Part shown: piece after piece, positions 6,082-47,734 of the stretch
How the letters are laid out: every line of letters begins with the position of its first letter
How positions within the stretch are numbered: the first letter of the stretch is position 1
Origin: Bacteroidota bacterium
GTDB taxonomy: Bacteria > Bacteroidota > Bacteroidia > Cytophagales > Microscillaceae
Direction of reading: 5' to 3'
NCBI GenBank assembly: GCA_004292795.1
Contig: RDXI01000026.1
Coordinates: forward strand, 1 to 49,549
Length of the DNA: 49,549 bases
Program-made: the position numbers and the translations under genes
Notes under the pieces: generated by a model
Databases searched by the model: none
What the model was told of the DNA's origin: nothing
What the model saw: only the letters and a program-made list of their open reading frames with translations

Positions 6082-8517
6082 TTACGCACTGCACGCCAAG
6101 CAATCGGGGTCATCAATCGAGCAAGTCTTGCCTTCGGCTATGTCGAGGGCGGAAATCTCGCCTACGTGAGCCATCATTTCTTGCGCTACGTGGGCTTGGC
6201 TGTTGATTTGGCGTTGTTTGGCTTCATTGGCGTTGTTTTGCAAAACCGTTTCCATGTCTATCGTGAACTTCGTAGCAGACGAAGCGGCACGGGTACGCAA
6301 GTAGTACAAGCCCGTTTTCAGTCCTTTGCGCCATGCGTAGAAGTGCATGGAGGTAAGTTTGGCGTAGTTCGCATCTTCCATGTGGATATTCATGCTTTGG
6401 CTTTGGCAAATGAACGCCCCACGGTCAGCCGCCATGTCTATGATAGCGCGTTGTTTGATTTCCCACACCGTTTTGTAAATGTCTTTGATGTGTTGGGGAA
6501 TTTCGGGGATATTTTGTATAGAGCCATCAGCTTGTATGAGGCGTTGCTTCATATTTTCGTTCCAAATACCCAACTCCACGAGGTCGTGCATGAGGTGTTT
6601 GTTCACGACTACGAACTCACCTGAAAGTACGCGCCTTGTGTAAATATTGGAAGTAAAAGGCTCAAAACATTCGTTGTTGCCCAAAATTTGCGAAGTAGAA
6701 GCCGTAGGCATAGGCGCGAGCAGGAGAGAATTTCGCACCCCATGCTGTAGCACCTGATAGCGCAATGCCTCCCAATCCCAACGACCAGAGTCAGGCTGTA
6801 CGCCCCAAAGGTCAAATTGGAACTTGCCTTGCGAGATAGGCGAGCCTGCAAACGTTTCGTAAGCCCCATCACGTTTTGCCAACTCCATCGAGGCAGTCAT
6901 AGCCCCGAAGTATATCGTTTCGAAAATATCCTTATTCAACTGTCTTGCCTCCTCCGAGTCGAAGGGGTAGCGCAACATAGCCAACGTATCCGCCAAACCT
7001 TGCACGCCTATGCCTATAGGTCTGTGGCGTTTGTTGGAGCGTTCCGCTTCAGGAATAGGGTAATAATTGAGGTCTATAATCTTGTTTAGGTTCTTGGTAG
7101 CTACTTGCGTAACTTCATACAATTTTTCATGGTCAAACTTTCCATCTATAATAAATCTTGGCAAGGCAATGCTCGCTAAATTACATACCGCCACCTCGTC
7201 TGCACTTGTATATTCCAAAATTTCTGTACAAAGGTTAGAACTTTTGATAGTGCCGAGGTTTTGTTGGTTCGATTTGGCATTGCACGCATCTTTGTAAAGC
7301 ATATACGGCGTGCCTGTTTCTATCTGTGATTCTATGATTTTGAACCAAAGTTCTTGCGCCTTGATGGTTTTGCGCTGTCTGCCCTCTTGTTCGTATCTCG
7401 TATAAAGTGCTTCGAATTGCTCTCCCCACACATCAGCCAAACCCGGACATTCGTTGGGGCAGAAAAGCGACCAATCGCCATCTTCTTCTACGCGCTTCAT
7501 GAACAAGTCCGAAATCCACATAGCATAAAACAAGTCCCTTGCTCTCAATTCCTCTTTGCCGTGGTTTTTCTTCAAATCCAAAAACTCGAAAATATCCGCA
7601 TGCCAAGGCTCAAGATAAATCGCAAATGCACCGGGGCGTTTGTTGCCACCTTGGTCGACATAGCGGGCAGTGTCATTGAATACTCTAAGCATCGGGATAA
7701 TGCCGTTTGAGTGTCCATTCGTGCCTTTGATGTACGAACCTGTAGCGCGTATGTTGTGGATAGATAGCCCTATTCCGCCTGCCGATTGCGAAATAAGAGC
7801 GCACTGTTTCAAGGTCTCATAAATTCCATCTATACTGTCCCCTTGCATGGTCAAAAGAAAGCAAGACGACATTTGCGGTTTCAGCGTACCCGCGTTAAAG
7901 AGCGTGGGCGTAGCGTGGGTAAACCATTTTTCGGACATCAAATTGTAGGTTTCGATGGCAGAGTCGATATCTTCGCCATGAATACCCAACGCCACACGCA
8001 TCAACATTTGTTGAGGGCGTTCTGCCACTTTGCCGTTTATTTTCAGTAGGTAAGACCTTTCGAGGGTTTTGAAGCCGAAAAAGTCATAATTAAAATCGCG
8101 TCCATATACTATAGCTGAATTGAGCGTATTGGCGTGCTTCTTCACTACTTCGTACACCTCATCAGACACCATGCCCGCTCTTTCCCCTGTTTTGGGATCC
8201 ACATATTCGTACAAGTTTTTCATCACCTTCGCAAAGTTCTTTTCAGTGTTCTTTTGAAGGTTCGAAATGGCTATGCGAGCCGCGAGAGCCGCATAATCGG
8301 GGTGAATGGTTGTCATCGTGGCGCAAATCTCAGCCGCAAGCGTGTCGAGCTGTGCAGTCGTAACGCCATCATACAAGCCATTGATAACTTTCATCGCCAC
8401 TTGGACAGGGTCCACATATTGGCGGTTCAGACTGTAGCATAGCTTTTCTATGCGGTCTGTGATTTTGTCAAACTTTACGGGTTCTTTGCGCCCGTCGCGC
8501 TTGATTACGTGCATCAT
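6082..8517 (-). CDS. nrdA: Ribonucleoside-diphosphate reductase class I, alpha subunit
   Basis: This 811-residue enzyme makes deoxyribonucleotides from ribonucleoside diphosphates together with an iron or manganese beta subunit. An ATP-cone occupies about residues 3-90. Substrate-site cysteines are C219 (in SSCFLL) and C445, and the thiyl-radical site is N428-L-C430-T-E432. The radical-transfer tyrosine pair lies in LYYLRTR near residue 725. The C-terminal thioredoxin-reactive pair is CLAC, three residues from the end. No nrdB lies in the window, so the subunits are unlinked here. The start is ATG 8517 (an ATG at 8514 is equally possible). A long, repeat-rich leader lies upstream. Confidence 0.96.
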
Positions 8518-8841: not shown

Positions 8842-9033
8842 ACGCAAATTTTTGGTAAAAAAAATGTATTTTTTCACGAAAAAACCTAAAATGCTGTTTT
8901 TTAATCATTTATAACGCCAAAAAAAATTAAAAAAAAATACGTTTGCGCAAAACAATAACATTTGATAAATGGCGTTATCGTTGCTATTTGCCTTGCCTAT
9001 TTAGTCCAAAAAATTCTAAAAAAGGTGCAATTT

Positions 9034-9570
9034 CTACAGCCCTTCATTGTACTTGTCTATGATGCGCATAAGCCTTGTTTGATAGGCTTTATCGCCACTG
9101 CTTGCCAACAATCCGCCAATAACAAGCATACTAACGCCCACAAAAATACCCAATAGCCAAAGTACAATGCTCCACCCTACAGAAACACCCGAAAACACAC
9201 CTGCGAGTGCTAATACAAGAAAAGTAACAGGCATCAACATAATTGCCCAACCCAACAACTTGCCTGCCTTGTACGATAGGCGAGCTTTCCTGATTTCCTT
9301 CCGCACAGCGCGAATACGTATGTCTTTTATCAAATTGCGGGCTGTAATATCTCTGTCGAGGGTATCGCCTTCGAAATAGTAATAAGTGCGTTGTCCGTAT
9401 TGGCGTATCCTGTTGCCCTCTGTAGTCGTTTCATAATAACTATATGCTACAGAAACGTATTCTATCCGTTTGCGCTTCGTGGTGTCGTGTGCGAGGGTAG
9501 GCGAGCTTGCCTGCACGACCATAGTAGGCAAGCAGGCAAGGCAGGCAAGCCAAAAAAAACGTATCAACAT
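9034..9570 (-). CDS. Membrane protein of unknown function with signal peptide
   Basis: This 178-residue protein has a signal peptide (MLIRFFWLACLACLPTMVVQ). A charged region with many Tyr and Arg (YSYYETTTEGNRIRQYGQRT) follows, and then two hydrophobic helices at about residues 105-130 and 133-158 before a short polar tail. It is probably an inner-membrane protein. The family is not recognised. A good -7 box lies 26 bases upstream of ATG 9570. Confidence 0.7.
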   Translation of the reverse strand: MLIRFFWLACLACLPTMVVQASSPTLAHDTTKRKRIEYVSVAYSYYETTTEGNRIRQYGQRTYYYFEGDTLDRDITARNLIKDIRIRAVRKEIRKARLSYKAGKLLGWAIMLMPVTFLVLALAGVFSGVSVGWSIVLWLLGIFVGVSMLVIGGLLASSGDKAYQTRLMRIIDKYNEGL

Positions 9571-9596
9571 AAAAGGCAGAAGTTTTGATTAGAACA

Positions 9597-9604
9597 CAAA
9601 TGTA
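9597..9604 (-). promoter_or_regulatory. -7 box for the gene at 9034-9570
   Basis: The minus strand reads TACATTTG, matching TAnnTTTG, 26 bases before the ATG. The -33 element is poor. Confidence 0.6.
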
Positions 9605-9705
9605 GCGCAATTTTTGTGCGAAAGGGGAATATTATTTTCTCCCAAATTTTTCTCCGTTTTTCAACCTAATTTTTCTAAAAAAAGTTATAGTTTTTAAAAA
9701 GTCGA

Positions 9706-9771
9706 TAGCTTTTTCTTACAAAAAAGCTATCTTTGACAAAAAATAGCTTTTTCTAGAAAAAGCTATCTTTG
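9706..9771 (+). promoter_or_regulatory. Tandemly duplicated palindromic promoter upstream of the SpmAB gene
   Basis: Two TATCTTTG boxes lie at 9728-9735 and 9764-9771, exactly 36 bases apart. Each is preceded by TAGCTTTTT...AAAAAGCTA. The downstream copy is a perfect 22-bp palindrome (9744-9765) centred on CTAG and overlapping the -7 box by two bases; the upstream copy is imperfect. The arrangement suggests two start sites, each with an operator-like palindrome. Confidence 0.7.
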
Positions 9772-9796
9772 GCAAAAATAACCCTGCGCTCACACA

Positions 9797-11035
9797 ATGG
9801 TACTCAACTACATTTGGATAATGTTTTTCTTGACCGCCTTTGTTATCGGTTCGGTTCGCTTGTTCTTTTTTGGCGACCAAGATATTTTCAAAGCGTTGGT
9901 AGATGCTTCGTTTACCTCGTCCAAAACAGCCTTCGAGCTTGCCTTAGGACTGACGGGTGCTATGGCTATGTGGTTGGGCTTTATGAAAATAGGCGAGAAG
10001 GCGGGCATCGTCAAGATTTTTACGTATCTTTTTGGACCTTTTTTTCAGCGTCTTTTCCCCGAAATTCCCAAAAATCACCCTGCTATTGCGCCTATTTTTA
10101 TGAAATTGTCTGCTAATTTATTAGGTTTAGACAATGCAGGCACACCGCTTGGCATCAAGGCAATGAAGGAAATGCAAACCCTCAACGAAACGCCTGACAC
10201 TGCCTCAAATGCGCAAATTATGTTTGCAGTTTTGAATACAACAGGTATGACGCTCATTCCCATTACCATTTTAGCGTACAGGGTGCAGTATCAAGCCCAC
10301 AATCCCGCAGATGTATTCATTCCTATTTTACTTTCCACTTCTATTGCTTTTTTCTCCGCGCTTGTGATGACCGCCCTCGTACAGCGCATCAATTTGCTTG
10401 ACAAAGTGTTGTTGGGCTATTTGGGTGCGTTATTATTGGGTATCAGTTGCACGATTTATTATTTTTCAAGCCTTCCCATTCAGCAGGTAAGCAAGGTGTC
10501 GGGTATGGTCAGCAATTTTCTGCTGTTTTCGGTCATTGTTTCTTTCATCATGCTCGCGCTTGTGCGCAAGGTGAATGTCTATGAGTCTTTCATAGAAGGC
10601 GCGAAAGAAGGTTTCGAAACGGCTGTGCGGATAATTCCTTTTTTGGTTGCTTTTTTGGTGGGTATTGCCGTTTTCAGGGCGGCGGGTGCATTAGACTTTC
10701 TGAAAAATGGTGTGGAAAGTATCACCGATTATTTTGGCGTTACGGGTGAGTACATTCACGCCTTGCCTGTAGCTTTCCTGAAGCCTTTGAGCGGTAGCGG
10801 GGCGGGCGCGGCAATGAATGATGTGATGAAGGTGTTTGGTCCCGACTCGCTTGCGGGGCAACTCGCCTGCGTATTTCAAGGCACTACCGACACCACGCTT
10901 TATATTTTGGCGGTGTATTTTGGGGCGGTAAACATCAAAAACACACGCTACACGGTTACGATAAGTTTGATAGCAAGCCTTATCGGAATGTCATCTGCTT
11001 TGTTTGTTACGTATGTTTTTTATTTTAGGGATTGA
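9797..11035 (+). CDS. SpmA-SpmB fusion, nucleoside-recognition (Gate) domain membrane protein
   Basis: This 412-residue polytopic membrane protein fuses the two halves known as spore maturation proteins A and B, each with a Gate (nucleoside recognition) domain. The SpmA half carries LGLDNAGTPLGIKAM (about residues 114-128) and the SpmB half carries LKPLSGSGAGAA (about 329-340). Members occur widely in non-spore-forming Bacteroidota, so the name does not imply sporulation; the likely role is transport or gating of a small molecule, unproven. It starts at ATG 9797, 25 bases after a strong -7 box, and ends 23 bases from the convergent nuclease gene. Confidence 0.9.
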   Translation: MVLNYIWIMFFLTAFVIGSVRLFFFGDQDIFKALVDASFTSSKTAFELALGLTGAMAMWLGFMKIGEKAGIVKIFTYLFGPFFQRLFPEIPKNHPAIAPIFMKLSANLLGLDNAGTPLGIKAMKEMQTLNETPDTASNAQIMFAVLNTTGMTLIPITILAYRVQYQAHNPADVFIPILLSTSIAFFSALVMTALVQRINLLDKVLLGYLGALLLGISCTIYYFSSLPIQQVSKVSGMVSNFLLFSVIVSFIMLALVRKVNVYESFIEGAKEGFETAVRIIPFLVAFLVGIAVFRAAGALDFLKNGVESITDYFGVTGEYIHALPVAFLKPLSGSGAGAAMNDVMKVFGPDSLAGQLACVFQGTTDTTLYILAVYFGAVNIKNTRYTVTISLIASLIGMSSALFVTYVFYFRD

Positions 11036-19467: not shown

Positions 19468-19574
19468 GTTCGTATAACACGCTATAAGGTACTAAAGTTT
19501 AACTTTTTCATACAACGCTGTATTTTTATTTTTAGTCGCAGGCAAGGCATACTTTCCTACTTTCTTTTGCGCCA

Positions 19575-19883
19575 TCATGGTTGTGCTTGTGGCAAGATTA
19601 TTTCCTCGACCAAAAAAACAGGGCGTTTGCGCGAAGCGTCCAAAGTGCGCCAAAGATATTCGGCTATGATGGTCGTTTGCGCAAAACCCATTGTCAAGAT
19701 TTGCAAGAAAATAGACGAATTTGCCTCTATGTTTTCGTTTGTGCAACCATACAAATTGACGAATTTAAATATTTTCACGTCCTCGCCTACCTGCTCATTG
19801 TGGAACGATTGGCGGTCATTTTCTATGTCCAATGTTTTCACAACACGGTTTTTGGTTTTTTCTGTAGGTGTTTGATTTATCAA
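19575..19883 (-). pseudogene. Mosaic relic: acyltransferase N-terminus joined to two pieces of a GT2 glycosyltransferase
   Basis: The 102-codon open frame is a patchwork. Residues 19-47 (LDIENDRQSFHNEQVGEDVK...FVNLYGC) match the N-terminus of the hexapeptide acyltransferase at 37983. Residues 51-71 (NIEANSSIFLQILTMGFAQT) match the inside of the GT2 at 40314, and residues 73-95 (IAEYLWRTLDASRKRPVFL) match its C-terminus. Two deletions, about 2.7 kb and about 0.27 kb in the modern gene order, would produce it and have kept the frame. It is a scar of an earlier island like that at 36.6-47.2 kb. It lies just downstream of the DUF4266 gene on the same strand. Whether it is expressed is unknown. 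Confidence 0.85.
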
Positions 19884-19889
19884 ATACTG

Positions 19890-20099
19890 TTAATTACACC
19901 CGCAACCTCCGCTTGATTTGGGTGTTCCTGCGGGAGTCGCGCCTTGCCTGATGGAGTGAATGTATTGCGTGTATTGTTTGCCCGCATCTGCGCCCATTTG
20001 CATTTCGCTGTCGTTGATGTATTGGCGTTGATAGGGTTTTACGGCAGTGCAAGCCCCCAAACACGAGGCTATCAACACGCTATAGAGGCACTTTTTCAT
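19890..20099 (-). CDS. DUF4266 domain small lipoprotein
   Basis: This 69-residue protein starts MKKCLYSVLIASCLGACTAV, a lipoprotein signal with the lipobox Cys near residue 17. It ends in the Gly/Cys-rich GGCGCN. The central VKPYQRQYINDSEMQMG is the hallmark of the DUF4266 family. Relatives are usually encoded with a thioredoxin-like protein, an ApbE FMN transferase and a DUF3570 outer-membrane protein. Here the first two are present and overlap, but DUF3570 is absent and the mosaic relic follows instead. ATG 20099 overlaps the ApbE gene by 20 bases; the longer frame from 20138 has no sensible signal sequence. Confidence 0.88.
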   Translation of the reverse strand: MKKCLYSVLIASCLGACTAVKPYQRQYINDSEMQMGADAGKQYTQYIHSIRQGATPAGTPKSSGGCGCN

Positions 20100-21015
20100 A
20101 CTTGATTTTTTGGGAAAAATGGATTTGGTCGTTTTCATCTATAATAATGCAATGCGTTTGCGGTAATTGATTGACAAAGTGCATACCAAGTTGCACGCCT
20201 TTCACATATACAGCCGTAGCCAACGCATCGGATAGTTCTGCACTTGGCGAAAACACCGAAACGCTTTTGATGCCTGTAATAGGCAAGCCATTATGCGGGT
20301 TCAGGTTGTGCGAATATCGTTTTCCTTGCCAAACAAAATGCTGTTCATAATCGCCTGATGTTGCCACCGCGCTATTTTCCAATGGCACATACAACAAGGC
20401 TTCGGCAGGGTTTTGTGGGTTCGCAATGGCAACTTTCCACGCGGTTTCGTCTGCATTTTTGCCCCACACATTCAAATCTCCGCTTGCATTCACAAAACCC
20501 GCTTGCACGCCTAAGCGTTGCCAAACTTGCTTTACTTTGTCCGAAGCATAGCCCTTGCCTACCGCCGCCAAACTTATGCGAGTCTGTGGGTGGACAAATT
20601 GTATGGTTTGATGCGTAGCAGAAAGTTCTATTTTCTGAAAACCTACCGCTTGAAGTGTTGCTTTTAACCTTGCCTGCGAGGGCATAGCAAAAGCCTGATT
20701 TTTGAATTGATACAACGCCTTCAAGGGTTTGGTCGTGATGTCAAAATCGCCTTCGGTAAGTTCGGAAAGGTGCAAACAACGTTGCAACAATTCAAAACAC
20801 TCCTCTTGCAACGCTACAGGTTGTTCGTAAGCCTTTTGATTGATGAGCGAAAGGGCAGAAGTAGGCAAGAATTCCGAAAACAATGCCTCGATGCGTTGTA
20901 TTTCTGCTATGCCTATTTCGAGCAAATCTGCACCTTGCCTTTCCTGCTCGGCTACCACGCCCAACGTAAAAGCAGAACCCATTAACTTTTGTTGGGTTTG
21001 AAACAAGCGGTTCAT
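20080..21015 (-). CDS. apbE: FAD:protein FMN transferase (ApbE family)
   Basis: This 311-residue enzyme transfers FMN from FAD onto Thr/Ser of target flavoproteins. Characteristic stretches are ISLAAVGKGYASDKV, NASGDLNVWG, TSGDYEQHFVWQGKRYSHNLNPHNG and LSDALATAVYVKG, the last carrying metal-binding Asp and Thr. The usual HIIDPxTG loop reads HNLNPHNG, an unusual variant. No signal peptide is visible, although many relatives are periplasmic. It overlaps the thioredoxin gene by four bases (ATGA) and the DUF4266 gene by 20, so the three form one tightly coupled operon. No obvious FMN-accepting protein is nearby. Confidence 0.92.
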   Translation of the reverse strand: MNRLFQTQQKLMGSAFTLGVVAEQERQGADLLEIGIAEIQRIEALFSEFLPTSALSLINQKAYEQPVALQEECFELLQRCLHLSELTEGDFDITTKPLKALYQFKNQAFAMPSQARLKATLQAVGFQKIELSATHQTIQFVHPQTRISLAAVGKGYASDKVKQVWQRLGVQAGFVNASGDLNVWGKNADETAWKVAIANPQNPAEALLYVPLENSAVATSGDYEQHFVWQGKRYSHNLNPHNGLPITGIKSVSVFSPSAELSDALATAVYVKGVQLGMHFVNQLPQTHCIIIDENDQIHFSQKIKYEKVPL

Positions 21016-21410
21016 TTGAGTTGCGTCAAGGTGTTTTGAAGCATTTGGGTAAACTCGCCTACAGACTCGTTTTGGTAGGCAAGGCGCGTATAGGCAAGCC
21101 CTTCTATTTTTTCTAACACAAGGGTAGGATACACGCCCTCAAACGCAAATTTTTCCGCGATTTTCGCATTGATTTCGCGCTGTTCTTTCGATAGTTTTTT
21201 CCTTTGCGGAAAGTCCACCATGACCAATTCTATTTGTTGCGAAAGCAAAAAATCTTGAAAAGTGGGCTGAGTCAAAACATTTTTATCCAATCGTTTGCAG
21301 TTCGTACACCAATCTGAACCCTCAAACACATACAGTTTGTAGCGGGTAGGCAAGGCGGGTGTAGGCGCGTGCAACAGCACGACTAACAAAAGGCTTGCGA
21401 GTAGTTTCAT
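21012..21410 (-). CDS. Exported thioredoxin-fold protein
   Basis: This 132-residue protein has a signal peptide (MKLLASLLLVVLLHAPTPA) and a thioredoxin-like domain. Its redox motif is WC35TNC38KRL and its cis-proline lies in VYPTLVL. The GSDWCTNCKRLDKNV start is typical of the DUF899/thioredoxin_7-like periplasmic reductases found beside ApbE and DUF4266. It is the first gene of the operon and probably serves the other two in the periplasm, for example by reducing Cys residues; that role is inferred from context. Confidence 0.9.
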   Translation of the reverse strand: MKLLASLLLVVLLHAPTPALPTRYKLYVFEGSDWCTNCKRLDKNVLTQPTFQDFLLSQQIELVMVDFPQRKKLSKEQREINAKIAEKFAFEGVYPTLVLEKIEGLAYTRLAYQNESVGEFTQMLQNTLTQLK

Positions 21411-36449: not shown

Positions 36450-36626
36450 ATGAAAATTCCCGTTGCAAAACCTTACTTAGATGCGGAAGACGCGCAAAGT
36501 GCTTATGACGTAATCCTCACGGGTTGGGTTACACAAGGCGCGAAGGTGCAAGCCTTCGAAGAAAATTTTGCGCAATATGTGGGCGCAAAGTACGCTGTAG
36601 CGGTTTCGAGTTGTACGAAGTCCTAA
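36450..36626 (+). pseudogene. N-terminal remnant of a DegT/DnrJ aminotransferase
   Basis: The 58-codon frame reads MKIPVAKPYLDAEDAQSAYD...GAKYAVAVSSCTKS and is about 85 percent identical to residues 1-56 of the intact enzyme at 44574. Homology stops near 36618, just after SCT, and the frame closes eight bases later. The matching C-terminal part of a second such gene is found at 47210-47734, on the other side of the polysaccharide island. The codon use is that of the backbone rather than of the island. Confidence 0.9.
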
Positions 36627-37947: not shown

Positions 37948-37982
37948 TTTTAAACTTGAACCCTTTGCAAGAGGGGAATGAT

Positions 37983-38492
37983 ATGGAAATCTTAACTGTA
38001 GAAAACGAGCGTCAATCACTCAACAATGTACGTGTAGGCGATGGCGTAAAAATATTCAAATTTGTGAATGCCTATGGTTGTGAGATTGGCGATGGCTCTA
38101 AAATAGGATCTTTTGTCGAAATCCAAAAAGGTGTTACAATAGGTAAGAATTGTAAAATCTCCTCACATACGTTTGTCTGTGAAGGTGTTACGATAGAAGA
38201 TGGTGTTTTCGTAGGACACAATGTTTCGTTTATAAACGATATGTTCCCACGTGCCGTGAATGAAGATGGTAGTCTACAGACAGAAGCCGATTGGAAAATC
38301 GTAAATACTGTAGTAGAAGAACGCGCTTCTATAGGCACAGGTGCAACTATTTTGGGCGGTGTGCGTATAGGCAAGAACGCTATTGTGGGTGCTGGCTCAG
38401 TGGTTACTAAAGATGTTCCCACTAATGCTATAGTAGCAGGCAATCCCGCTAAAATTATTCGTTATATAGCCCCCAACCCCAAAGGGGAGTAA
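37983..38492 (+). CDS. Hexapeptide-repeat N-acetyltransferase, WlbB/WbpD-like
   Basis: This 169-residue left-handed beta-helix acyltransferase has many hexapeptide turns (IGDGSKIGSFVEIQKGVTIG, ILGGVRIGKNAIVGAGSVVT) and the NxxFxND-type loop HNVSFINDMFPRA. It would acetylate the 3-amino group made by the downstream aminotransferase. ATG 37983 is preferred over an in-frame TTG at 37956. The last residues APNPKGE are encoded by a hairpin repeat (38469-38487), which seems to have replaced or extended the natural C-terminus. A fragment of a homologue forms part of the relic at 19575-19883. Confidence 0.9.
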   Translation: MEILTVENERQSLNNVRVGDGVKIFKFVNAYGCEIGDGSKIGSFVEIQKGVTIGKNCKISSHTFVCEGVTIEDGVFVGHNVSFINDMFPRAVNEDGSLQTEADWKIVNTVVEERASIGTGATILGGVRIGKNAIVGAGSVVTKDVPTNAIVAGNPAKIIRYIAPNPKGE

Positions 38493-38530
38493 TTTTTATT
38501 AAAACTATGCCCCCCTTTGGGGTTGGGGGC
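38469..38530. repeat. Hairpin of GCCCCCAACCCCAAAGGGG arms across a gene end
   Basis: A perfect 19-bp stem (38469-38487 with 38512-38530) encloses 24 bases that include the stop codon of the acyltransferase. TTTT follows on the plus strand, so partial termination within the operon is possible. Confidence 0.9.
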
Positions 38531-38543
38531 TTTTCAAATCCTT

Positions 38544-39638
38544 ATGAACATTCCCTGTCTTGACCTTAAAAAACAATATACTCAAATAAAACAAGAAGTT
38601 TTAGCTCGATTTGAGCAGGTTTGCGAAGATACCGCCTTTTCAGGAGGCAAGTATGTAGAACAATTTGAGAAAAATTTTGCAACCTATTGTGATACAAAAT
38701 ATGCCATAGGGGTAGATAATGGTACATCTGCCTTGCATTTGGCTATGCTTGCGCTTGGCATCAAAGAAGGCGATGAAGTTATCTTGCCTGCCAATACCTT
38801 CATAGCTACAGCATGGGGTGTGAGCTATTGTAATGCTACTCCCGTTTTTGTTGATTGTACTTCAGACACTTGGGAAATAGATGCTTCAAAAATTGAAGCG
38901 AAAATTACGCCTAAGACTAAAGCTATAGCAGGAGTTCATTTATACGGACAGCCTTTTGATATTGACGCAGTAAGGGCTATTGCCCAAAAACATAACCTGT
39001 TTTTGATTGAAGATGCGGCGCAAGCGCATGGCGCACATTACAAAGGCAAACGTGTGGGTGGTTTTGGCGAAATGGCGTGCTTTAGTTTTTACCCAGGCAA
39101 GAACTTAGGTGCTTATGGAGAAGCGGGTGGACTTACTACCAATAACGAAAGTTATGTAAAACATATCCACAGTTTGCGTAGTCATGGCTCTACAGTGCGT
39201 TATTACCATGATGAAATAGGCTACAATATGCGTATGGGCGGACTCGAAGCGGTAAGCCTTGATGTAAAACTTGCCTACCTTGACGGCTGGAACAGTCGCA
39301 GGAAAGAAGTTGCAAAAATGTATCAAAAGGGCATTACTAACCCCAAAATAAAGATGCAGGCACAACCCGAATTCGCTGACTCGGTCTATCATTTGTTTGT
39401 GATTACTACAGAAGACCGCGATGGTTTGATGAAATACCTGAATGAAAATCAAATTTCTCCAGGCTTGCATTATCCTGTGCCTTGTCATTTGCAAAAGGCT
39501 TACTTACATTTGGGACACAAAGTAGGTGATTTCCCCAACGCCGAATATTTGGCTTCGCATTGCCTTTCCTTGCCTATGTTTGCCGAACTAAGCAATGAGG
39601 AAGTAGAGAAAGTAATAACGGTTTTGAATAGTTATTAG
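38544..39638 (+). CDS. DegT/DnrJ/EryC1 aminotransferase, WlbC/WbpE-like
   Basis: This 364-residue PLP enzyme has the Schiff-base lysine K186 in FSFYPGKNLGAYGEAG and the PLP-binding IEDAAQAHGA (D157). The start NIPCLDLKKQYTQIK and the ending HYPVPCHLQKAYLHLG are typical of sugar 3-aminotransferases such as WlbC, WbpE, FdtB and QdtB. With the oxidoreductase and acetyltransferase before it, it probably installs a 3-amino group on a UDP-sugar. ATG 38544 lies 14 bases after the hairpin; the in-frame TTG at 38517 lies within it and is rejected. Confidence 0.92.
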   Translation: MNIPCLDLKKQYTQIKQEVLARFEQVCEDTAFSGGKYVEQFEKNFATYCDTKYAIGVDNGTSALHLAMLALGIKEGDEVILPANTFIATAWGVSYCNATPVFVDCTSDTWEIDASKIEAKITPKTKAIAGVHLYGQPFDIDAVRAIAQKHNLFLIEDAAQAHGAHYKGKRVGGFGEMACFSFYPGKNLGAYGEAGGLTTNNESYVKHIHSLRSHGSTVRYYHDEIGYNMRMGGLEAVSLDVKLAYLDGWNSRRKEVAKMYQKGITNPKIKMQAQPEFADSVYHLFVITTEDRDGLMKYLNENQISPGLHYPVPCHLQKAYLHLGHKVGDFPNAEYLASHCLSLPMFAELSNEEVEKVITVLNSY

Positions 39639-39681
39639 GATTTGGTTTTTGGAGTTCATGTCTTCGTTTGCTACTACAATT

Positions 39682-40299
39682 ATGAAAAAAAAACTTATCA
39701 TTTTTCCCTTCAACGGCAATGGTTTAGAAGCCTTTGATTGTTTGACTGATGAATTTGATTTTATAGGATATGCAGATGACACACCCGAAAAACAAAAAAA
39801 ATACGAGCATTTTGAGGTTTTTTCACGCGAAATCATAACCCAATATCCTGAAGCAAAGATTTTAGCCGTCTTGGGTAGCCCTGCCAATCATCGATATCGC
39901 CATGAAATTATAGGTTCTTTACAAATACCTGAAAGCCGTTTTGCTACAATCGTTCACCCTAAAGCGTCTGTAGCAAAATTAGCCAAAATTGGCTATAACA
40001 CCTTGGTTATGGCAGGTGTAGTGATTACAAGCAATGCGACTATCGGCAATCACATTTGCATCTTGCCTAATACAGTGATACACCATGATGTTACAATAGG
40101 CGATTATAGCCTGTTAGGTAGCAACATCACTTTAGCAGGAAGCGTACAAATAGGCGAAAATTGTTATGTGGGAAGTGGCACAAGTATTATTCAAAATACA
40201 ACCATTGGCAAATTTTCTTTGATTGGTATGGGTTCAAATGTACTGAAAAATGTGCCTGAAAATAGCAAAGTAGTTGGCAATCCTGCCCGACTAATTTGA
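39682..40299 (+). CDS. Sugar O/N-acyltransferase, PglD/NeuD-like
   Basis: This 205-residue protein has an N-terminal PglD-type alpha/beta domain (KKLIIFPFNGNGLEAFDCL, FIGYADDTPEKQ) followed by left-handed beta-helix turns (TIGNHICILPNTVIHHDVTI, LLGSNITLAGSVQIGENCYV). The end is VPENSKVVGNPARLI. Such enzymes acetylate amino sugars or sialic-acid-like sugars. The start could also be ATG 39658, giving eight more residues; 39682 gives the normal first strand. It lies in the middle of the island operon. Confidence 0.9.
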   Translation: MKKKLIIFPFNGNGLEAFDCLTDEFDFIGYADDTPEKQKKYEHFEVFSREIITQYPEAKILAVLGSPANHRYRHEIIGSLQIPESRFATIVHPKASVAKLAKIGYNTLVMAGVVITSNATIGNHICILPNTVIHHDVTIGDYSLLGSNITLAGSVQIGENCYVGSGTSIIQNTTIGKFSLIGMGSNVLKNVPENSKVVGNPARLI

Positions 40300-40313
40300 C
40301 AAAACAAATATTT

Positions 40314-41246
40314 ATGTATAATTTATCTGTTATTATTCCTTTCTTAAACGAATCTGGTAATATAGAACGTCTTACTACTGAACTTGATACTTTTTTTTCC
40401 AAAAAAATGGATTTGAAAGTTGAAGTAATTTTTGTAGATGATGGCTCTACAGATAACTCCCTTGAGTTACTTCAGCAGGCAAGATACACCCATTATACAC
40501 CCAAAGTCATCAAGCTTTCGAAAAATTATGGTTCACACGCTGCCCTTCGCGCAGGTATTTTGCACGCAGAAGGGGCGTACATATCTTTTATGTATGCCGA
40601 TTTGCAGGATCCGCTTGAACTTATAACACAAATGTATGCACTTGCACAAGAAAGACACGAAATAGTATGGGCAGTACGCAAAACTACCCAATCGGGTTTC
40701 TCTGAAAGGCTGTTTTCGCAAACATACAGCTACTTGATGAAAAAATATGCTATCAAAAACTTCCCTGCAAAGGGCTTTGATATCGTGATGTTTGGGCAAA
40801 AGGTAAGGCGCGAATTGAACCAAAATATAGAACTAAACTCGTCCATCTTCCTGCAAATTTTGACAATGGGCTTTCAACAAACTACTATAGAGTATGATAA
40901 GCAGGCAAGACAAGCGGGTAAGTCAAAATGGACTTTTAGCAAAAAAGTAAAACTTTTTGTAGATTCTTTCATAGCTTTCTCCTTCGCGCCTATTCGTTTT
41001 GTTACGTTTGTAGGTATTTTATTATTTATTTTGGGTAGCTTATATGGGGCTTACATAGTAGGCAGAAAGTTGATTTACAATGACTTAGAACAAGGTTGGG
41101 CTTCATTGATAGCCATTTTGATGGTGGGTTTTGGTATTACTAATATTTCATTGGGTATTATAGCCGAATATTTGTGGCGTACTTTAGATGCTTCGCGCAA
41201 ACGACCTCTTTTTATTATTGATGACATTATAAGCCCCAAAAATTAA
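40314..41246 (+). CDS. Family 2 glycosyltransferase, polyprenyl-phosphate sugar synthase type (GtrB/DPM-like)
   Basis: This 310-residue membrane-bound enzyme has the GT2 nucleotide-binding VIFVDDGSTDNS, the donor-site Asp in MYADLQDPLEL, a QILTMGFQQTTIEY strand and two C-terminal membrane helices (about residues 225-290). Relatives move a sugar from a nucleotide to undecaprenyl phosphate for later use by GT-C enzymes, of which two candidates follow. The start ATG 40314 precedes the conserved YNLSVIIPFLNE. Internal and C-terminal pieces of a homologue are found in the relic at 19575-19883. Confidence 0.92.
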   Translation: MYNLSVIIPFLNESGNIERLTTELDTFFSKKMDLKVEVIFVDDGSTDNSLELLQQARYTHYTPKVIKLSKNYGSHAALRAGILHAEGAYISFMYADLQDPLELITQMYALAQERHEIVWAVRKTTQSGFSERLFSQTYSYLMKKYAIKNFPAKGFDIVMFGQKVRRELNQNIELNSSIFLQILTMGFQQTTIEYDKQARQAGKSKWTFSKKVKLFVDSFIAFSFAPIRFVTFVGILLFILGSLYGAYIVGRKLIYNDLEQGWASLIAILMVGFGITNISLGIIAEYLWRTLDASRKRPLFIIDDIISPKN

Positions 41247-44573: not shown

Positions 44574-45722
44574 ATGAAAATTCCAGTTGCAAAACCCTAC
44601 TTAGACGCACAAGATGCGCAAAATGCCTACGATACCATTCTCACAGGCTGGGTAACACAAGGTCCCAAAGTGCAAGAGTTTGAGGAAAAATTTGCGCAAT
44701 ATACAGGCGCGAAATATGCTGTAGCTGTTTCAAACTGTACTACTGCCTTGCATTTGGCTATGATAGTCGCAGGGGTAGGCGAGGGCGATGAAGTTATCTG
44801 CCCTTCTATGTCTTATATTGCTACAGCGAATTGTATTCGCTATGTGGGTGCGAAAGTCGTATTGGCTGAAGTAAATCCTGAAACGTATAATATTGATTTA
44901 CAAGACGTTATAAAACGTATCACACCCAAAACAAAGGCAATTTTAATCGTACATCAAATAGGCTTGCCTGCCGACATTGACGCATTTGCTTCTTTGTGTA
45001 AAGAAAAAGGAATAACTTTGATAGAAGATGCAGCATGTGCCGCAGGTTCTGCCTACAAGGGAGGCAAGATTGGCTCACATTCCGATTTGGTTTGCTTTTC
45101 GTTTCACCCTCGCAAAGTCATTACTACAGGTGATGGAGGTATGATAACGACCTCGCGTCAAGAATATGCAGACCGCCTGAAACTTTTGCGCCAACATGGA
45201 ATGGCTATCAACGACCGAGTGCGCCACGAATCTACTACTGTAGTACTTACTGACCACTTGGAATTAGGCTACAATTACAGAATGACTGATATCCAAGCGG
45301 CTGTAGGCATCAAGCAATTAGAAAAATTGGATTGGATAATAGCGGAAAGGCGCAAAATTGCCTTGCAATATCATCAAGCTTTTGCCGATATAACCACTAT
45401 TCGCTTGCCTATAGAGCAGGAAGGCTATTTTTCCAATTACCAATCGTATTCAGTTTACCTAAAACCTGAATTTCCAATTAACCGAGATGAATTGATGCAG
45501 AAAATGCTTGACGAAGGCATTTCTACGCGTAGTGGTGTAATGACTACACACCGCGAAACTGCCTACAGAGCATATTGTGCGGGTATTATTTTGCCTGTTT
45601 CTGAAGATGCTTGTGATAGAAGTATTATTTTGCCACTTTATGTACCTATGACTCAAGAAGAAATAAATTTTGTCATTGAAACCTTCAAAAAAATATGCTT
45701 ACCAAAAAACGACATTTTATAG
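44574..45722 (+). CDS. DegT/DnrJ/EryC1 aminotransferase, perosamine-synthase/ArnB-like
   Basis: This 382-residue PLP enzyme has the Schiff-base lysine K181 in CFSFHPRKVITTGDGGM and the PLP-binding Asp in IEDAACAAGSAY (D152). The start MKIPVAKPYLDAQDAQNAYD and the HETAY-like end are typical of sugar 4-aminotransferases (RfbE/ArnB/PseC group). It is the intact homologue of the two flanking pseudogene fragments at 36450 and 47210. It overlaps the next gene by 28 bases. Confidence 0.92.
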   Translation: MKIPVAKPYLDAQDAQNAYDTILTGWVTQGPKVQEFEEKFAQYTGAKYAVAVSNCTTALHLAMIVAGVGEGDEVICPSMSYIATANCIRYVGAKVVLAEVNPETYNIDLQDVIKRITPKTKAILIVHQIGLPADIDAFASLCKEKGITLIEDAACAAGSAYKGGKIGSHSDLVCFSFHPRKVITTGDGGMITTSRQEYADRLKLLRQHGMAINDRVRHESTTVVLTDHLELGYNYRMTDIQAAVGIKQLEKLDWIIAERRKIALQYHQAFADITTIRLPIEQEGYFSNYQSYSVYLKPEFPINRDELMQKMLDEGISTRSGVMTTHRETAYRAYCAGIILPVSEDACDRSIILPLYVPMTQEEINFVIETFKKICLPKNDIL

Positions 45723-47137: not shown

Positions 47138-47209
47138 AGGGTTATGTTTTATGTTTTTGAATAACCAAAATATTTACCTAACTCTGCCAAGAAAAATATC
47201 TTGTTGATA

Positions 47210-47734
47210 GAAATAACTACTTCGCGGAACGGCTGAAACTTTTGCGCCAACACGGAATGGCTATCAATGACCGAGTGCGACACGAGGCAAGCCAAGTGTT
47301 GATAACTGACCATGTGGAATTGGGCTACAATTATCGAATGACATACATTCAGGCATCTGTGGGCATCAAACAATTAGCCAAATTGGATTGGATAGTGCAG
47401 GCAAGGCGCGACATAGCCCAACAATATCACGAAGCCTTTGCCGATGTGCCTTTCCTACGCTTGCCTACCAAACCCGAAGGCTATCACACGAATTGGCAGT
47501 CGTACATGGTGTATATCTTGCCTACTTGCCCCATAAACCGCAACGACCTGATGCAAAAGTTGTTAGATGAAGGCGTATCAACGCGAAACGGCTTATAGGG
47601 AATATTGCGCGGAGGTGTCCTTGCCTACCTCCGAAGATGTGTGCGACAGAAGTATCATCTTGCCTTTGTACGCGCAAATGACACAAGTAGAAATAGATTT
47701 TATGATACAACGCCTCAAGGCTTGTTTTGCATAG
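47210..47734 (+). pseudogene. C-terminal remnant of a DegT/DnrJ aminotransferase, frameshifted
   Basis: From ITTSR at 47210 the sequence matches residues 191-382 of the enzyme at 44574 (RLKLLRQHGMAINDRVRH, GYNYRMTYIQASVGIKQLAK). Relative to that gene there are two small deletions, about 13 bases near 47224 and 26 bases near 47585. The second breaks the frame after VSTRNGL; the reading continues one frame over as ETAYREYCAEVSLPTSEDVC to TAG 47732-47734. Both deletions lie at short GCG/CGCG repeats. The fragment complements the N-terminal remnant at 36450, but residues 57-190 are missing from both. Confidence 0.9.

Follow-up and report, generated by a model that had tools for sequence, protein, structure and literature searches.

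A 102-codon open frame of acyltransferase and glycosyltransferase pieces beside a flavinylation operon is most likely a deletion scar

The DNA analysed here, a stretch of 49,549 nucleotides from a Bacteroidota genome of the family Microscillaceae (Cytophagales) that we call the window, carries on its minus strand an operon of thioredoxin-like, ApbE and DUF4266 genes. Six bp past the DUF4266 stop (19890) begins a frame that is fully open for 102 codons, from TTG to TGA, with the translation LINQTPTEKTKNRVVKTLDIENDRQSFHNEQVGEDVKIFKFVNLYGCTNENIEANSSIFLQILTMGFAQTTIIAEYLWRTLDASRKRPVFLVEEIILPQAQP. In order, it consists of the N-terminus of a WlbB-type acyltransferase (~33 codons), an interior portion of a GT2 glycosyltransferase (24 codons) and a GT2 C-terminus (~24 codons), designated pieces A, B and C in Table 1. 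Codons 1-14 (19883-19842) are upstream DNA in which no homology was detected. Homology to WlbB is seen from 19841 onwards, where the frame has a GTG in the place of the ATG that opens intact WlbB genes; codon 48, a threonine, is assignable to neither flank of the first join, and piece C is followed by LPQAQP and the stop.

Table 1. Features of the window that bear on the mosaic frame.
Feature	Position	Strand	Remarks
Mosaic frame	19575..19883	-	102 codons; probably a pseudogene scar
Piece A	19743..19841	-	first 33 codons, WlbB-type hexapeptide acyltransferase, GTG to ...NLYGC
Piece B	19668..19739	-	24 internal GT2 codons (NENIEANSSIFLQILTMGFAQTTI), equivalent to window GT2 40818-40889
Piece C	19596..19667	-	24 C-terminal GT2 codons (IAEYLWRTLDASRKRPVFLVEEII), equivalent to window GT2 from 41160
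DUF4266 gene	19890..20138	-	directly upstream of the scar
Thioredoxin-like and ApbE genes	20080..21410	-	same operon as DUF4266
Second remnant (DegT residues 1-58)	36450..36623	+	83-86% identical to 44574-45722
Intact WlbB-type acyltransferase, present island	37956..38492	+	paralogue of piece A; Pfam score 88 bits (PF00132)
Intact GT2, present island	40296..41246	+	paralogue of pieces B and C
Third remnant (DegT residues 194-373)	47209..47722	+	~65-70% identical; frameshift near 47580-47600

A preliminary description had read the frame as a mosaic that combines a WlbB-like N-terminus with two parts of a GT2, and searches of the genome against itself bore this out. Residues 14-49 matched the WlbB-like gene of the sugar island in the same window (37980-38087; E 8e-9, 56%), residues 48-79 matched the island GT2 (40815-40904; E 3e-7, 73%), and residues 52-99 matched the C-terminus of that GT2 (41085-41240; E 1.5e-10). 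These two genes were the sole own-genome matches besides the frame itself, and the present island is its closest relative in the genome. The alignment to both genes that had been proposed as a check placed all three pieces in the right frame and order, with DNA identities of 77% for A, 77% for B and 86% for C. Differences from the parents fall mostly at third codon positions (5, 6 and 16 at the first, second and third positions in A; 4, 2 and 11 in B; 4, 0 and 11 in C).

The window GT2 has a PF00535 match of 85 bits over residues 11-173; in NCBIfam its top scores were to PgfS- and ArnC-type models, every one below cut-off. Its orthologues in other Cytophagales are 55-67% identical, and in four of the islands that surround them (L117, L118, L120 and L121) the WlbB, DegT and GT2 genes have the same order and strand as in the window. 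NeuD stands between DegT and GT2 in L118, L120, L121 and the window, and an SDR gene and then a second DegT gene lie downstream of GT2 in these islands; at a further GT2 orthologue locus, L119, WlbB was not detected. In the L117 island, from a single-contig genome (G412), the first DegT gene (L117:7402-8486) appears to be frame-split near 7670, possibly a further sign of decay in such islands. In the congener's island (L059:7522-8658 and 9025-9972), a FAD-dependent monooxygenase-like gene stands between an EamA-like gene and the SDR gene, and the GT2 is only 37% identical to that of the window; what the island contains thus changes even inside the genus. We also considered whether the present island breaks up a conserved order of genes behind ftsI, and abandoned the idea because the genes after ftsI vary among the family members in which a frame downstream was readable.

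Although the present island supplies the nearest matches, the frame is not a copy of its genes. It reads NENIEANSS, as do both L117 and L118, where the window GT2 has NQNIELNSS; it reads NLYGC, as in L118, in place of the window's NAYGC; and it reads KRPVF, as in L117, where the window has KRPLF. Because the frame thus holds residues that are common to other genera and absent from the window genes, its source was a divergent version of the island. The preliminary suggestion that it records an older island copy at a distant site therefore stands in part: another version, with residues shared with orthologues, is represented away from the present island, but 'older' has to give way to 'divergent', since an older copy and a separate acquisition are indistinguishable as the source.

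The two deletions that had been postulated are likewise supported by what is seen in relatives, as the gene order that they require is present in the orthologous Cytophagales islands. Projected onto the window island, the first join removes 38082-40817 (2,736 bp) and the second 40890-41159 (270 bp). Both lengths are multiples of three, which is why the frame stayed open, and given the collinear WlbB-DegT-GT2 order in the four islands, two collinear deletions suffice. The pieces are collinear with a known gene order and the sequence that would lie between them is absent. We infer that the Trx-ApbE-DUF4266 operon was formerly followed, on the minus strand, by a second, divergent island with the order MocA-WlbB-DegT-NeuD-GT2-SDR-...-DegT, or by part of one. 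A first deletion of ~2.7 kb would have joined WlbB codon ~33 to GT2 codon ~175, and a second of ~270 bp would have cost the GT2 stretch between QTTI and IAEYLW. Short words were likely shared at the joins, ATC or CATC in the case of join 2; we infer this parental microhomology, and call it probable, because the true parents of the scar are not at hand. Among relatives, none was found in which the scar site holds an intact island. Taken together, we assign a probability of about 75% to the reading of the frame as a non-functional fossil of a divergent island version, produced by two deletions.

The surroundings of the frame bear on how the pieces came to lie there. In most of 25 other Cytophagales loci, the gene next after DUF4266 is one of ~400 codons that we class as DUF3570-type from a published cluster and from sequence similarity judged by eye; in such clusters, DUF3570 is a substrate of ApbE flavinylation (eLife 2021;10:e66878, PMC8238504). 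In the genome studied here, the only DUF3570 gene found sits on another contig, C28 (L086:6133-7398). Its separation from DUF4266, unlike the arrangement in most relatives, makes it probable that the scar lies at a rearranged point. DUF4266 was not found in the other genomes of the family that were searched, so the Trx-ApbE-DUF4266 operon was probably acquired. In the window, the scar lies between the DUF4266 gene and a TPR gene; the corresponding TPR locus of the congener has neither a scar nor an ApbE operon, and the TPR gene there is preceded by an ABC transporter gene instead. Most of the Cytophagales DUF3570-type proteins read here (L086:6133-7398, L060-L083) carry [S/T]SA[S/T] in place of the flavinylation motif as published, [S/T]GA[S/T] (eLife 2021;10:e66878, PMC8238504). 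A 12-base repeat on either side of the scar (19502-19513 and 20090-20101) was considered as the mark of a duplication or insertion and rejected, as equal alignments occur elsewhere in the window.

A rearranged point would also suit a piecemeal origin, likewise of a fossil, in which illegitimate recombination joined short fragments of a foreign island, either as DNA was taken up or at the DUF4266/DUF3570 break, without the site ever having held a larger island. The residues closest to those of the frame, being common to other genera, are what such an import would bring. Nonetheless, the pieces follow the gene order of the island and share one frame, for which two deletions are the simpler account, and we regard piecemeal import as unlikely.

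Whether the frame is instead a small chimeric protein, made and kept for use, had been raised in the preliminary description. In favour of such a protein, the frame is open over 102 codons, its start so close behind the DUF4266 stop makes co-transcription with the ApbE-DUF4266 operon probable, and the differences from the parents are biased to third positions. The open frame does not require selection, however: when we simulated random deletion pairs in the window island, shifting the four breakpoints randomly by up to 30 bases, 17% left a frame that ran without interruption as far as the GT2's own stop. The third-position divergence, for its part, may mostly be older than the deletions. The proposed search of relatives for the same chimera gave no second copy in the one congener, across the family (15 genomes, including the genome itself and the congener), in ~395 genomes drawn from the phylum, or in three collections of genome contigs, plasmids and viral contigs; among these, the fused product shows no conservation across species.

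The content of the frame also argues against a kept protein. It shares the first 33 codons of the acyltransferase without the hexapeptide repeats and the remainder of the enzyme, and 24 internal and ~24 C-terminal codons of GT2, but neither the catalytic domain nor any membrane helix of that enzyme. Pfam returned no domain match for the chimera, neither hexapeptide repeats (PF00132) nor Glycos_transf_2 (PF00535), and on these grounds it belongs with neither the acyltransferases nor the GT2 enzymes. In piece A, 3 of 17 otherwise invariant positions are changed (Met1 to Val, the ATG start having become GTG; Ile3 to Thr; Val16 to Glu), compared with 0-2 changes in intact proteins when each sequence was left out in turn; the corresponding counts are 0 of 12 in piece B and 1 of 16 in piece C, for a chimera known from a single copy. 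As the sample is small, this only hints that constraint has relaxed in a scar of recent date. It counts against the fossil reading that B and C retain nearly every conserved residue, so that decay would be slight or recent. An AlphaFold model from the single sequence had a mean pLDDT of 54.6, a low confidence that is uninformative either way; scans for promoters and terminators gave no signal above shuffled sequences; and a weak NCBIfam hit to FolD, which at 18.9 bits fell far short of the cut-off (486), was taken as chance. We consider a kept protein very unlikely, and likewise a newborn one, in which two unrelated genes of a sugar island, fused in frame, would be expressed from the ApbE flavinylation operon. 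Least probable is an assembly artefact: the genome is fragmented (430 contigs) and ~82% complete, but the pieces are internal to a 49.5 kb contig and differ by 14-23% in DNA from the sole other copies in the assembly, so that a misjoin of the present island cannot yield them.

Two divergent remnants of DegT aminotransferase genes sit on either side of the present island (Table 1). They show that pieces of a second version of an island gene are decaying here, which agrees with the fossil reading of the scar; remnants and scar may go back to one lost island or to separate ones. Perhaps the present island went into an older one that ended in DegT, or took its place.

Deletion-derived pseudogene scars occur in bacterial polysaccharide loci, and a literature search on chimeric or remnant genes returned nothing of use. 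The frame resembles such scars in that collinear gene pieces have been truncated and fused as parts of a dispensable sugar island were deleted; it differs from them in that both joins are in frame and the result reads as one open frame. Most likely, then, it is an ordinary genome fossil, the pseudogene of two deletions, rather than a new protein. As such, it is a clean example of a double deletion that leaves an open frame and that annotation pipelines risk calling wrongly as a gene, and it indicates that, in the lineage of this genome, one and the same surface-sugar island has existed in several divergent versions, two at the least.
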